64,000 nucleotides of DNA. It comes from Clostridiales bacterium (GTDB taxonomy: Bacteria > Bacillota > Clostridia > Christensenellales > Aristaeellaceae). Location: positions 28,367-92,366 of the forward strand of contig SVHC01000007.1 of NCBI GenBank assembly GCA_015056055.1. Direction: 5' to 3'. The notes beneath the pieces were generated by a model. It saw only the letters and a program-made list of their open reading frames with translations. It had not been told where the DNA came from and searched no databases. Positions 3,571-64,000 of the stretch are shown piece after piece; the stretch's first letter is position 1, and every line of letters starts with the position of its first letter. A program made the position numbers and the translations under genes.

Positions 3571-3586
3571 GAATGCGACTTCTGAT

Positions 3587-3756
3587 TCAAATCCGCAGCG
3601 GCGGCGTGTACGCCGCGAGGAGCGTATTTTTTCGTAGGGAAGCCCGCGACCCGAAGAAAAAATCGTTTCCCTGCAGATTTCACGGCCGGAATCCAAAGGA
3701 TTCAAGTGAAATCTGGTGGGGGTGGCAGTGGCGGGGGAGTTTACTTCCCCGTCCAC
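3587..3756 (+). repeat. Family B repeat without the C insert
   Basis: This copy begins caaatccgcagcggcggc and includes the hairpin GGCGGCGTGTACGCCGC. It continues with an A-rich GAAGAAAAAATCG stretch, arms CAGATTTCAC/GTGAAATCTG, and a terminal hairpin of GTGG..GGGG and CCCC..CCAC type. It lies between potC and potD inside the operon. It lacks the roughly 110-base C module found in the 13, 42, 60 and 63.7 kb copies, so it serves as an empty-site comparison. Confidence 0.75.
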
Positions 3757-3765
3757 AATGCAAAG

Positions 3766-12959: not shown

Positions 12960-12981
12960 CCCTCCGGCGAGTACCGGAGGG
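12960..12981 (-). terminator. Terminator hairpin, distal copy (flanking the 13-kb B/C element)
   Basis: CCCTCCGG and CCGGAGGG pair around CGAGTA; on the minus strand TTTTTC follows. A 21-base identical copy lies at 13336-13356 on the other side of the repeat element and has no T run. This looks like the terminator of the serine hydrolase gene, duplicated around the insertion. Confidence 0.7.
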
Positions 12982-12986
12982 CAGTC

Positions 12987-13329
12987 TGTCAAAAAAGTAT
13001 TTTTGCCAGACTTGTGGCGGGGAAGCAAGCTCCCCCGCCACTGCCGACCACAATTCGCAATGGTCGTCCGCCATCGCTTTCGCTTGGCGTACTTCCTTGC
13101 TCATTGGACTCTCGCCGCGCGGTTTCGCCCACTGGGCGCGCGCTTCGTTCGTCCCCTCACCAGATTTCACTGAAATCATAAAGATTTCGGGCGTGAAATC
13201 TGCAATGTAGCGATTTTTTCTTCAGTTCGCTGGCTCACCTTCGAAAAAATTCGCTCCTCGCGCCGTACATGCCGCCGCTGCGGATTGAATTTTTCTTTTC
13301 TAGATAAACGATATTCGCGTTTTTTGACA
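12987..13329 (-). mobile_element. Family B/C element with TGTCAAAAAA ends
   Basis: The unit is bounded by TGTCAAAAAA (12987-12996) and TTTTTTGACA (13320-13329), an exact 10-base inverted pair. Inside, on the minus strand, are the B module (cagcggcggcatgtacgg type hairpin, AGAAAAAATCG, CAGATTTCAC arms), one C module (the 'gagcaaggaagtacgccaa' region) and the terminal GTGGCGGGG/CCCCGCCAC hairpin. It encodes no protein, so it is non-autonomous if mobile. Confidence 0.6.
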
Positions 13330-13335
13330 AACCTA

Positions 13336-13356
13336 CCTCCGGCGAGTACCGGAGGG
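13336..13356 (-). repeat. Proximal copy of the duplicated terminator hairpin
   Basis: This stretch is identical over 21 bases to 12961-12981. It lies between the serine hydrolase stop and the end of the B/C element and lacks the following T run. Confidence 0.7.
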
Positions 13357-13412: not shown

Positions 13413-14048
13413 TTACTTCGTCTGCGACAGCATCCATTTCAGCGTTTCCTCTGAAAATGCGTATTCCCACGAATTGTGACCTACACCCTCATACAGGTTG
13501 TATTTCAGGTTCGGATTCATGTCTTTCAGCTTTTCCACCATCTCGATGGTCTGGTTCGGGGAAACAACATTATCATCCAGCCCGTGGAATGCCCAGACGG
13601 GCATTTTGATTGATGCGGCATTCCATGCCATACCGCCTCCGCAGCAGGGCAGGATTGCAGCAAAAAGATCCGGATACGCCATTGCCGTGTACCACGTTCC
13701 AAAGCCGCCCATGCTCAGACCGCAAAGATATATTCTGTTTGTATCCGCCGAGTATGTTTTTACCATCTCGTCGATAAATGCTTTGATGCTTTCGATTCTT
13801 GCTACCCAGAACGTTTCGGCGGGACATTGCGGCATGATCAGAATGCAGTCTTTAAAATTGTCATCGGTTGCAACTTTTTGAAAGCCGTGTACCAATACCT
13901 TGTCAAGTTCATTTCCGCCGCAGCCCCGTTCCCCTGCGCCGTGCAGCTGAATCAACAGGGCAGGATGGTCACTTGTCTTTTCAGGCTGACAGGCAATATA
14001 AGGGAAAATACTTTCGCAATTTTCTTTCCGGATTGTTTTCACCTTCAC
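13413..14048 (-). CDS. Alpha/beta-fold serine hydrolase (esterase-like)
   Basis: A 211-residue cytoplasmic hydrolase. It has LIQLHGAGERG (oxyanion-hole strand), the nucleophile elbow GLSMGG (Ser near residue 115), an Asp in FHGLDDNVV and a His in GVGHNSWEYA, in the canonical order. This resembles the PHB-depolymerase/phospholipase-carboxylesterase-like group often annotated as prolyl oligopeptidase-type hydrolase. The start is GTG; two GTG codons six bases apart (14048 and 14042) follow an AGAGG site, and the second has better spacing. It is directly downstream of dnaN, where recF would usually be found. The substrate is unknown. Confidence 0.85.
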   Translation of the reverse strand: MKVKTIRKENCESIFPYIACQPEKTSDHPALLIQLHGAGERGCGGNELDKVLVHGFQKVATDDNFKDCILIMPQCPAETFWVARIESIKAFIDEMVKTYSADTNRIYLCGLSMGGFGTWYTAMAYPDLFAAILPCCGGGMAWNAASIKMPVWAFHGLDDNVVSPNQTIEMVEKLKDMNPNLKYNLYEGVGHNSWEYAFSEETLKWMLSQTK

Positions 14049-21371: not shown

Positions 21372-21945
21372 CCGCACTGCGCGCGCCTTTGGCGGCGCAG
21401 TGTTCCGTGACTGCGCACTGCGTGTGCTCGTCACTCCACCCGCTTCGCGGGCTCCTTAAATGCACTGCGCGCGCCTTTGGCGGCGCAGTGTTTCGAGGCT
21501 TCGTACCGTGCTATGCTAACGCATGCCCGGTATTCCGTGCTGCGGAGAGCTGCGCTCTGTCCTCGCACTACACCCTTCGGGCTCCGCATGGCACCGTCCT
21601 CGCTACGCTCGTCCGGCGCGGGGTACGCACTGCGCACGCCTTTGGCGGCGCAGTGTTTCGAGGCTTCGTACCGTGCTATGCTAACGCATGCCCGGTATTC
21701 CGTGCTGCGGAGAGCTGCGCTCTGTCCTCGCACTCTGTCCTCAATTCGCAATGGTCGCCTTCCGTCGTTCGCAGGCTCCCTTGGAATGCTTCCTTGCTCA
21801 TTGGACTCTCTTCGTTTTGTTTCGCCCACTAGGCGCGCACTTCGTTCGTCCCCTTCGGGCTCCGCATGGCACCGTCCTCGCTACGCTCGTCCGGCGCGGG
21901 GTACGCACTGCGCACGCCTTTGGCGGCGCAGTGTTAAGATAGTTC
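21372..21945. repeat. Family D repeat block with an embedded C-like module
   Basis: Several copies of 'cactgcgcacgcctttggcg' with the closing arm GCGCAGTG lie here. A unit of about 180 bases (21470-21560 and 21640-21730 share 'gaggcttcgtaccgtgct') is duplicated. The stretch 21738-21860 matches the C module seen inside the B/C elements. This fills most of the 21371-22158 gap; frames across it are not genes. Confidence 0.75.
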
Positions 21946-23746: not shown

Positions 23747-23833
23747 ATTTGGATACCAAGAATAGCGGACGGACACCTCATCCGTCTCCATTTGCTTTTC
23801 AAAAAACTAATAGTAGGATTAGAAAAAAACACA

Positions 23834-24003
23834 TTCAAATCCGCAGCGGTGGCATGTACACCGCGAGGAGCGTATTTTTTCGCAGAAGAGCCTGCGAAGC
23901 GGAGAAAAAATCGCTTCCTTGCAGATTTTACGCCCGAAATCTGGAGGATTTCAGTAAAATCTGGTGGGGGTGGTAGTGGCGGGGGAGATTGCTTCCCCGC
24001 CAC
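23834..24003 (+). repeat. Family B repeat without the C insert
   Basis: Starting with caaatccgcagcggtggc and ending with the GTGGCGGGG/CCCCGCCAC hairpin, it has the same order of hairpins as 3587-3756. The C insert and clear TGTCAAAAAA ends are missing. A truncated family A fragment (23773-23790) lies just before it. Confidence 0.7.
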
Positions 24004-41545: not shown

Positions 41546-41573
41546 AAACGGGCTTGCTTGCAAGTCCGTTTTT
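41546..41573 (+). terminator. Terminator hairpin of the M6 protease gene, proximal copy
   Basis: AAACGGGCTTG and CAAGTCCGTTT pair, followed by TT. An identical 28-base copy lies at 42030-42057 beyond the repeat element. Confidence 0.8.
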
Positions 41574-41576
41574 GCT

Positions 41577-42024
41577 TGTCAAAAAAACTTAAATTGACTA
41601 AAAAGAGAAAAAAGTTCAAATCCGCAGCGGCGGCGTGTACGCCGCGAGGATCGTATTTTTTCGAAGGAGAGCCAGCGAACCGAAGAAAAAATCGTTTCCT
41701 TACAGATTTTACGACCGAAATCTGCAAGATTTCAGTAAAATCTGGTGAGGGGACGAACGAAGCGCGCGCCCAGTGGGCGAAACCGCGCGGCGAGAGTCCA
41801 ATGAGCAAGGAAGTACGTCAAGCGAATGCGATGACGGACGACCATTGCGAATTGTGGGTGGTAGTGGCGAGGGACGAACGAAGTGCGCGCCCTGTGGGCG
41901 AAACAGCACGGCGTGAGTCCAATAAGCAAAGGAGCACAGCTAGCTTAGCGACGCTGGGCGACTATTGCGCATTGAGGAATGTTTACTTCCCCGTCCACCA
42001 GACTGGCAAAATACTTTTTTGACA
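41577..42024 (+). mobile_element. Family B/C element with TGTCAAAAAA ends, two C modules
   Basis: It runs from TGTCAAAAAA (41577-41586) to TTTTTTGACA (42015-42024). The B module starts at about 41618. Two C modules follow in tandem (about 41755-41865 and 41875-41985; 'ggacgaacgaagcgcgcgcc' begins the first). No gene inside. It fills the 41528-42137 gap. Confidence 0.65.
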
Positions 42025-42029
42025 GTCTG

Positions 42030-42057
42030 AAACGGGCTTGCTTGCAAGTCCGTTTTT
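42030..42057 (+). terminator. Terminator hairpin, distal duplicated copy
   Basis: Identical over 28 bases to 41546-41573, here followed by one further T and TGTATG. It lies five bases beyond the end of the repeat element. Confidence 0.75.
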
Positions 42058-42839: not shown

Positions 42840-42842
42840 ATT

Positions 42843-42872
42843 TGTGGCGGGGAAGCGTACTTCCCCGCCACA
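42843..42872. terminator. Bidirectional hairpin between convergent genes
   Basis: A perfect 13-base stem (TGTGGCGGGGAAG / CTTCCCCGCCACA) lies between two convergent stops. It is the same hairpin that closes family B repeats, here on its own. No long T run. Confidence 0.65.
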
Positions 42873-59946: not shown

Positions 59947-60323
59947 CGCGAAGCGTGGCTTCGCGTGTGGACGGGGAAGCAGGCTCCCCCGCCACTACCG
60001 ACCACAATTCGCAATGGTCGTCCGCCATCGCTTTCGCTTGGCGTACTTCCTTGCTCATTGGACTCTCGCCGCGCGATTTCGCCCACCGGGCGCGCACTTT
60101 GTTCGTCCCCTCACCAGATTTTACTGGAATCCTTCAGATTCCGGTCGTAAAATCTGCAATGAAGCGATTTTTTCTTCGGTGCGCAAGCTCCCTGCGAAAA
60201 AATACGCTCCTCGCGGCGTACATGCCGCCGCTGTGGATTTAAATGTATTTTTTGTTGGCGTTGCTGATAATTTTTTGACAATCGGCGCGAAGCGTGGCTT
60301 CGCGTGTGGACGGGGAAGCAGGC
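59947..60323 (-). mobile_element. Truncated family B/C element between 38-base direct repeats
   Basis: Identical 38-base copies lie at 59947-59984 and 60286-60323 and contain the hairpin CGCGAAGC-GTG-GCTTCGCG. Between them is a minus-oriented C module (59985-60110) and B module (60110-60245), ending in TTTTTTGACA (60271-60280). The opposite TGTCAAAAAA end is missing. This fills the 59947-60350 gap. Confidence 0.65.
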
Positions 60324-63661: not shown

Positions 63662-63694
63662 AAAAAGCCGATATGGATTTTATTCCATGTCGGC
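63662..63694 (-). terminator. Hairpin 3' of the glycosidase gene
   Basis: GCCGATATGGA and TCCATGTCGGC pair, with five A before the stem, so the T run is on the minus strand. It borders the B/C element that begins at 63701. Confidence 0.6.
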
Positions 63695-63700
63695 TCAGTC

Positions 63701-64000
63701 TGTCAAAAAAGTATTTTTGCCAGACTTGTGGACGGGGAAGCAAGCATTCCTCAATGCGCAATAGTCGCCCAGCGTCGCTAAGCTAGCTGCGCTCCTTTGC
63801 TTATTGGACTCACGCCGTGCTGTTTCGCCCACAGGGCGCGCACTTCGTTCGTCCCCCGCCACTGCCACCCTCACCAGATTTCACTGAAATCATAAAGATT
63901 TCGGGCGTGAAATCTGCAATGTAGCGATTTTTTCTTCGGTTCGCTGGCTCACCTTCGAAAAAATTCGCTCCTCGCGCCGTACATGCCGCCGCTGCGGATT
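63701..64000 (-). mobile_element. Family B/C element with TGTCAAAAAA end, cut by the window edge
   Basis: It starts with TGTCAAAAAA (63701-63710) followed by the same GCCAGAC, GTCCCC-hairpin, C module and B module order as at 12987-13329. The sequence 63880-64000 is almost identical to 13150-13285. The far end is outside the window. Confidence 0.65.

Follow-up and report, generated by a model that had tools for sequence, protein, structure and literature searches.

The 64,000-nucleotide window studied here, from a member of the Aristaeellaceae, contains two short repeat units with the same inverted ends, each lying between two copies of a hairpin that differs from one site to the other. This arrangement raises the question of what kind of element the units are and how a whole hairpin comes to be duplicated around them. 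An earlier note on this DNA had placed the inverted ends and duplicated hairpins correctly at both sites, and had proposed a non-autonomous element that inserts at the 3' terminators of genes or copies itself along with them.

Elements in the window

The insertion sites and eroded copies found in the window are given in Table 1. The first unit had been delimited as 12987-13329; the inverted ends are there, but the element is about 5 bp longer on each side (12982-13334), because the bases beyond TGTC recur at sites with different hairpins. The two ends of intact copies are CAGTC-TGTCAAAAAA and TTTTTTGACA with ATCAA or AGCAA after it. The motif TGTCAAAAAA occurs six times in the window, against 0.25 expected occurrences and a maximum of two among 100 shuffles, and the left element end is itself a near-palindrome (AGTCTGTCAAAAAAGTATTTTTGCCAGACT).

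The open reading frame next to site 1 is on the minus strand (13413-14048), and therefore it is the gene-distal hairpin copy, 12961-12981, that keeps its T run, seen as an A run on the plus strand. The claim that only the distal hairpin keeps its T run holds for this site but not for site 2, where both copies have one because the right element end supplies TTGCT. The hairpin at site 2 had been described as 28 bases long; 28 bases are indeed identical, but the duplication is 26 bp once the element end is placed at TTGCT-TGTC. Site 3 is irregular, with a direct repeat that extends into TGTGGACGGGGAAGCAGGC. The preceding genes are alpha/beta-hydrolase-like at site 1 (minus strand), long with a weak peptidase M6 match at site 2, GNAT-like at site 3, and GH123-like at site 4.

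The minus-strand RNA of 12982-13334 is predicted to fold strongly (-142.4 kcal/mol, z = -6.4). A module of about 106 bp is missing from L039, occurs once in the site 1 element and twice in the site 2 element, and also stands alone in the genome (window 21738-21854; loci L022, L029, L032 and L050 are also involved). It is perhaps a second, nested repeat.

Table 1. Hairpin copies and elements in the window
Feature	Position	Strand	Remarks
Site 1, hairpin copy 1 (CCTCCGGCGAGTACCGGAGGG)	12961..12981	.	Identical to copy 2
Site 1, non-autonomous element	12982..13334	+	Left end CAGTCTGTCAAAAAA, right end TTTTTTGACAAACCT
Site 1, hairpin copy 2	13336..13356	.	Same 21 bases as copy 1
Site 2, hairpin copy 1 (AAACGGGCTTGCTTGCAAGTCCGTTT)	41546..41571	.	
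Site 2, non-autonomous element	41572..42029	-	Holds two internal modules, about 105 bp
Site 2, hairpin copy 2	42030..42055	.	
Site 3, hairpin copy 1 (CGCGAAGCGTGGCTTCGCG)	59947..59965	.	
Site 3, element	59966..60285	+	Left end lost; right end TTTTTTGACA at 60271-60280
Site 3, hairpin copy 2	60286..60304	.	
Site 4, hairpin copy 1 (AGCCGATATGGATTTTATTCCATGTCGGCT)	63666..63695	.	Copy 2 lies at the end of contig C25 (L038)
Site 4, element	63696..64000	+	Cut by the contig end
Eroded element copy	3585..3758	-	Ends lost; flanking repeat looked for, none found
Eroded element copy	23820..24003	-	Flanking repeat looked for, none found

Copies in the same genome and in related genomes

The genome containing the window (G000; 2.83 Mb in 80 contigs, assembly 95% complete) gave 62 BLAST matches to the element, corresponding to about 40 elements or pieces of about 225-460 bp, and several contigs break inside an element. 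The intact copies have similar ends, and the adjoining hairpin varies by site. We scored each left flank against its own right flank and against the right flanks of other elements. Seventeen of the 28 non-edge copies outscored the mismatched pairs at their 99% quantile (12.7); the highest score of any mismatched pair was 66, presumably from loci present twice among the rows. Most of the 11 negative copies are eroded or have lost ends. The 28 exclude elements at contig or locus edges (including the unpaired L035, L036, L046, and L052), a 31-bp piece (42842-42872), and loci that duplicate a place already covered in the window. The five rows containing the module alone were scored separately, and one of them passed the same quantile. 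Three further insertions are split between contigs (C65/C25, C33/C24, and C28/C29), with the hairpin common to both sides. A scan for duplicated hairpins that was blind to the element ends returned 20 rows from the loci it covered, one of which repeats a window place and two of which lie away from the element (L022:869 and L103:641).

Being short and multi-copy, with inverted TGTCAAAAAA ends and a flanking duplication, the window element is a MITE. The earlier note assigned the duplicated sequence to the site and the ends to the element, and the constant ends next to different hairpins at many sites bear this out. The hairpins at the ends of intact copies could instead belong to the element and travel along with it. 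We regard this as extremely improbable, given that the ends stay constant while the hairpin varies by site and that the fetched empty sites (described below) already hold the hairpin once; the proposal that the element copies itself along with terminators is likewise unsupported.

An end pattern was found in 8 of the 121 genomes of the host family, and the match in G013 is probably fortuitous. The same arrangement is present in five other genera of the family (G018, G021, G031, G053, and G095), in the genus mate G001, and in Butyricicoccus faecihominis (NZ_JANGCE010000031.1), and the flanking repeats in these genomes reach about 37 bp. A contig pattern scan returned three records (L082, L083, and L084), of which L082, from Butyricicoccus, contains a relative of the element whose hairpin repeat measures 36 bp.

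Related insertion sequences of the IS1182 family

No IS1182-type transposase was detected in G000 at E values up to 0.001 with PF13751, PF01609, NF033551, or the L141 protein. An IS4/IS1634-type transposase was also considered for the long, variable duplication and was set aside, as PF01609 is without a match in G000 and the relatives are IS1182. The transposase gene with matching ends that the earlier note had called for was thus not found in G000, but it exists in relatives, in a family with the same hairpin duplications, and the non-autonomous nature of the window element is borne out.

NF033551, which represents the IS1182 family, has matches in 72 of 151 host-family genomes at E values up to 0.001, 18 of them above its cut-off. 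The relatives L141, L239, L137, and L136 pass the cut-off of 270 bits (409.9, 465.9, 438.6, and 442.4 bits, respectively) and are members of the IS1182 family; the transposases of L141 and L239 also match PF13751 and PF05598. Searching with the L141 protein gave matches in 69 of 392 genomes of the class. The L141 insertion sequence (G024) begins and ends with CAGCCTGTCAAAAAAGG and CAGCCTGTCAAAGAAGG, the hairpin beside it is duplicated, and its terminal match to the window element is CAGCCTGTCAAAAAA. L188 matches the window element over 17 terminal bases (CAGTCTGTCAAAAAAGT), its right end corresponding to the left end of the element. As judged by eye, the IS1182-family group behind the window MITE has ends of roughly CAGNNTGTNNACAAA.

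Among fetched genomes and public plasmid and phage records we identified 32 IS copies that have this end type and in which both ends were found. Twenty-four lie between two copies of one hairpin (in L201, only part of the hairpin), and eight abut two different hairpins (L136, L198, L199, L218, L230, L231, L237, and L238). The count excludes L140, whose right end coincides with the edge of the locus; L227, L233, L241, and many partial loci, which have no usable end pair; and L207, a broken IS with a 17-bp hairpin repeat. A 44-bp direct repeat at L146 was rejected as a duplication because it consists of the element's own GGGGCTGTTGCA ends. Duplications in public records measure 35 bp in Cytobacillus firmus (NZ_CP085391.1), 30 bp in Sutcliffiella horikoshii (NZ_CP082921.1), 24 bp in Peribacillus (NZ_CP133765.1) and Acetoanaerobium noterae (NZ_CP154629.1), 22 bp in Cetobacterium somerae (NZ_CP143322.1), Enterococcus faecium (CP063606.1), and the satellite phage Javan256 (MK448386.1), and 21 bp in Staphylococcus arlettae (NZ_CP094804.1).

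The eight mixed pairs could have arisen if a single IS attacked a different hairpin with each of its ends, with deletion or inversion of the DNA between them. Each end of these copies is at a hairpin foot, and two near-identical IS of one strain (L229 and L230) comprise one duplication and one mixed pair. However, homologous recombination between IS copies would yield the same picture, and attack on two targets is a possible but rather doubtful explanation.

In a phylogenetic tree of 35 transposases, the 25 from copies that abut hairpins cluster together (support 93/93, midpoint root); they comprise 19 duplicating copies, 5 mixed copies, and 1 cut by an edge. For the 10 transposases outside this group, which include GGACCTGTTGACAAA- or GGGGCTGT-ended copies and ISCfr1, a hairpin duplication was not found; among these, the ends of L147 and L150 are incompletely defined. 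The tree leaves out L138, L185, L198, L199, L216-L218, and L235. A flanking repeat was looked for in the IS1182 subgroup with GGACCTGTTGACAAA ends (L206, L147, and L148), and none was found; these may be hairpin replacers like IS1272.

Empty and orthologous sites

When the two flanks of the E. faecium insertion were joined, they matched 101 plasmid records, 85 of them with at least 80% in one place; all 60 of the matches listed are uninterrupted stretches of about 466 bases and so lack the IS. Three E. faecium plasmids were aligned, and each has one hairpin where the filled plasmid (L239) has two. With the hairpin present twice in the filled site and once in the three empty sites, L239 does not show the stem-loop replacement of the IS1272 type. 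Hairpin copy 2 of the filled plasmid is missing 5 bp of the empty site. Together with the many hairpin sites, the single hairpin in the empty sites of this full-length relative bears out the proposed insertion at 3' terminators. The evidence from empty sites is weaker for the short element itself.

At three insertion sites in G053, the element is absent from the orthologous sites in genus mates; the gene names used here (recF-like, transketolase-like, and gyrB-like) are a reading of the sequence only. At the recF-like site, a single hairpin without the element is present in G006; in G080, G102, G061, G087, and G109 the element is absent and a clear hairpin is lacking as well; and G018 and G129 contain other DNA. 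The earlier expectation for empty sites was a single hairpin, and two orthologous sites depart from it. In the sister species G006, the transketolase-like site (L184) has two and the gyrB-like site (L166) three similar hairpins, and neither site has the window element. The extra hairpins adjoin other repeats (CTTTGTTGACAAAG-like), and we read them as belonging to other, putative IS1182-type repeats. At the transketolase-like site of G080 (L176), a GCGTGTCAAAG palindrome is next to a hairpin. The repeats with IS1182-like ends at the gyrB-like and transketolase-like terminators of the sister species suggest independent hits on the same terminators.

Geometry of the duplications

By the standard account, target duplication is invariant for a given transposase. 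We studied the duplication in 33 sites with both ends anchored (12 short elements and 21 IS), of which 24 came from an automatic scan and 9, with known ends, were added by hand. The sites were picked by end motif and direct repeat, and palindromy played no part in the selection. Some loci were beyond the limits of the scan and so are outside the 33, for example site 1, site 3, L042, L043, L045, L050, L056, L097, L101, L103, L106, L107, L123, L137, L138, and L201.

The duplications are 20-36 bp long, and their center coincides exactly with the dyad of the hairpin in 30 of the 33 sites and is no more than 1 bp from it in 32. Symmetric positions are complementary in 330 of 406 cases, whereas 2000 shuffles gave 117 on average and never more than 149. 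By an eye count, the first and last duplication bases are paired in 26 of the 33 folds. Duplication length follows the length of the longest hairpin only loosely (r = 0.55). A T-tract adjoins the hairpin on at least one strand in 27 of the 33 sites, where about 21% is expected from random positions. The target is thus a hairpin, usually with a T-tract alongside, and the whole hairpin is duplicated, with one copy at each end. One transposase does not give one length, because at three sites in G318 a single IS is flanked by duplications that measure 30, 24, and 24 bp (its fourth copy is mixed).

In three loci the two hairpin copies are related in an unusual way. The copies of L187 (G180:C44) are exact inverted versions of each other, with two mismatches in direct and none in inverted alignment, and those of L049 (G000:C70) differ less when inverted (5) than when direct (8). 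In both cases it looks as if the loop had flipped. The copies at L042:970-1300 (G000:C40) have common stems and different loops, and the loop differs in both direct and inverted alignment; in front of the upstream copy, just after a stop codon, lie 14 bases left over from the element's right end in inverted orientation, which creates a large palindrome.

Proposed mechanism of insertion

The copies described above show the choice of target, the duplication of the whole hairpin, its variable, dyad-centered length, and the shared ends. For the cleavage step, we infer a cut at a cruciform. It is likely, in our judgment, that the window unit is a MITE of the IS1182-family group whose ends attach to an extruded cruciform at its 5' feet, the structure of the DNA setting the length of the duplication. 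In this scheme a cruciform extrudes at a terminator, and DDE strand transfer would join one element end to each of its 5' feet. The gaps left behind are single-stranded hairpins, and once they are repaired the duplication would have the length of the hairpin, with a stagger that depends on DNA structure instead of a set spacing. We lean, somewhat less firmly, toward extending this to a whole clade of IS1182-family transposons and the MITEs derived from it, with ends that strike the opposed 5' feet of the cruciform at a terminator, keep the hairpin intact, and produce a duplication of structure-set length. The eight mixed IS copies of 32, the partial hairpin of L201, and the 5 bp missing from copy 2 of the filled E. 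faecium plasmid count against the cruciform explanation. So do the five sites whose palindrome extends past the duplication, the loose correlation of lengths, the A and T bias at the duplication ends, the failure to find an IS1182 transposase in G000, the extra hairpins at the two G006 sites, and the two duplicated hairpins away from the element (L022:869 and L103:641). The loop anomalies of L187, L049, and L042 would fit the repair of folded single strands, but these are few cases.

Two alternatives agree with the cruciform explanation in everything except the cleavage step, and the likelihoods given for the three are therefore not exclusive of one another. In the first, the transposase reads a palindromic B-form duplex through two symmetric contacts with variable spacing, no cruciform is extruded, and A/T at the foot sets the cuts. 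The duplications start with A in 24 of the 33 sites and end with T in 28, so a sequence preference could contribute. In addition, the palindrome extends 7-10 bp outside the duplication in 5 of the 33 sites, which means that cutting does not always occur at the base of the longest stem that could form and that in these sites it lies well within a longer palindrome. However, lengths of 20-36 bp overall and of 24-30 bp for one IS, nearly always centered on the dyad, would be hard to achieve with a single transpososome geometry, and we consider this mechanism unlikely.

In the second alternative, the hairpin is attacked in single-stranded DNA, in the lagging strand or an R-loop, during replication or transcription. 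The T-tract alongside 27 of the 33 targets is in keeping with this, and gap repair by template switching is compatible with the three loop anomalies. Duplication nevertheless requires two opposed cuts, one on each strand, and we find attack on a single-stranded hairpin slightly less plausible still than recognition of the B-form duplex.

Consequences for the host terminators

If duplication length tracks the hairpin, as the cruciform explanation holds, cruciform extrusion at bacterial terminators would become readable from genome sequences. When the element lies left end first, the first hairpin has no T run, being followed by CAGTCTGTC, and the second retains it, so termination should shift to the far side of the element. 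Transcripts that read through the first hairpin would stop at the second, and insertion would do little harm. Insertion probably leaves one working gene-ending signal, which suggests an insertion strategy that would preserve the terminator function of the host gene.

Comparison with known systems

The RUP and Correia elements are MITEs that, like the window element, are short and gene-free and have inverted ends and many copies; unlike it, they make short, fixed duplications (TA). In ISfinder, the direct repeats of the IS1182 family vary in length and reach about 60 bp, and so its curators may have seen single cases of the duplication described here. In the parts of the literature available to the search (including PMC10969869, PMC10383233, PMC3098183, and PMC7891712), we found no description of whole-hairpin duplication by an IS.

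Other elements assigned to the family differ from the present group to varying degrees. An ISEfa7-like IS1182 element (L237, NZ_CP131826.1) is in the same tree group and has CAGACTGTAGACAAA ends, each at a hairpin foot; the fetched copy abuts two different hairpins, whereas its relative L239 has a duplication. ISCfr1, annotated as IS1182, has other ends, and a duplicated hairpin was not found around its copy in L242. ISCaa15, also IS1182 as annotated, has 4-bp direct repeats in two copies according to a table in PMC3196728.

The closest comparison is with IS1272 and TnSha1 of the IS1182 family. In the available portions of PMC4923244 and PMC5678879, these elements target hairpins without a sequence consensus, some of the hairpins having been shown to be terminators, and the hairpin is deleted or replaced with no target duplication. 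In the list of matches, a record annotated as IS1272 matches the L141 protein with 27% over 31% of its length. The present group resembles IS1272 and TnSha1 in its IS1182-family transposase and its hairpin targets, but it duplicates the hairpin whole. Hairpin targeting by IS1182 members is thus known, and stem-loop duplication is known as a proposal, drawn in 2017 as hypothetical pathway b for IS1272 in the part of PMC5678879 available. The present IS group fits that pathway. If the cruciform explanation is true, the group is a natural case of the proposed stem-loop-duplicating pathway and a mirror image of IS1272. A natural experiment on strand polarity is offered by related clades, since one type of target is deleted in some (IS1272) and duplicated in others.
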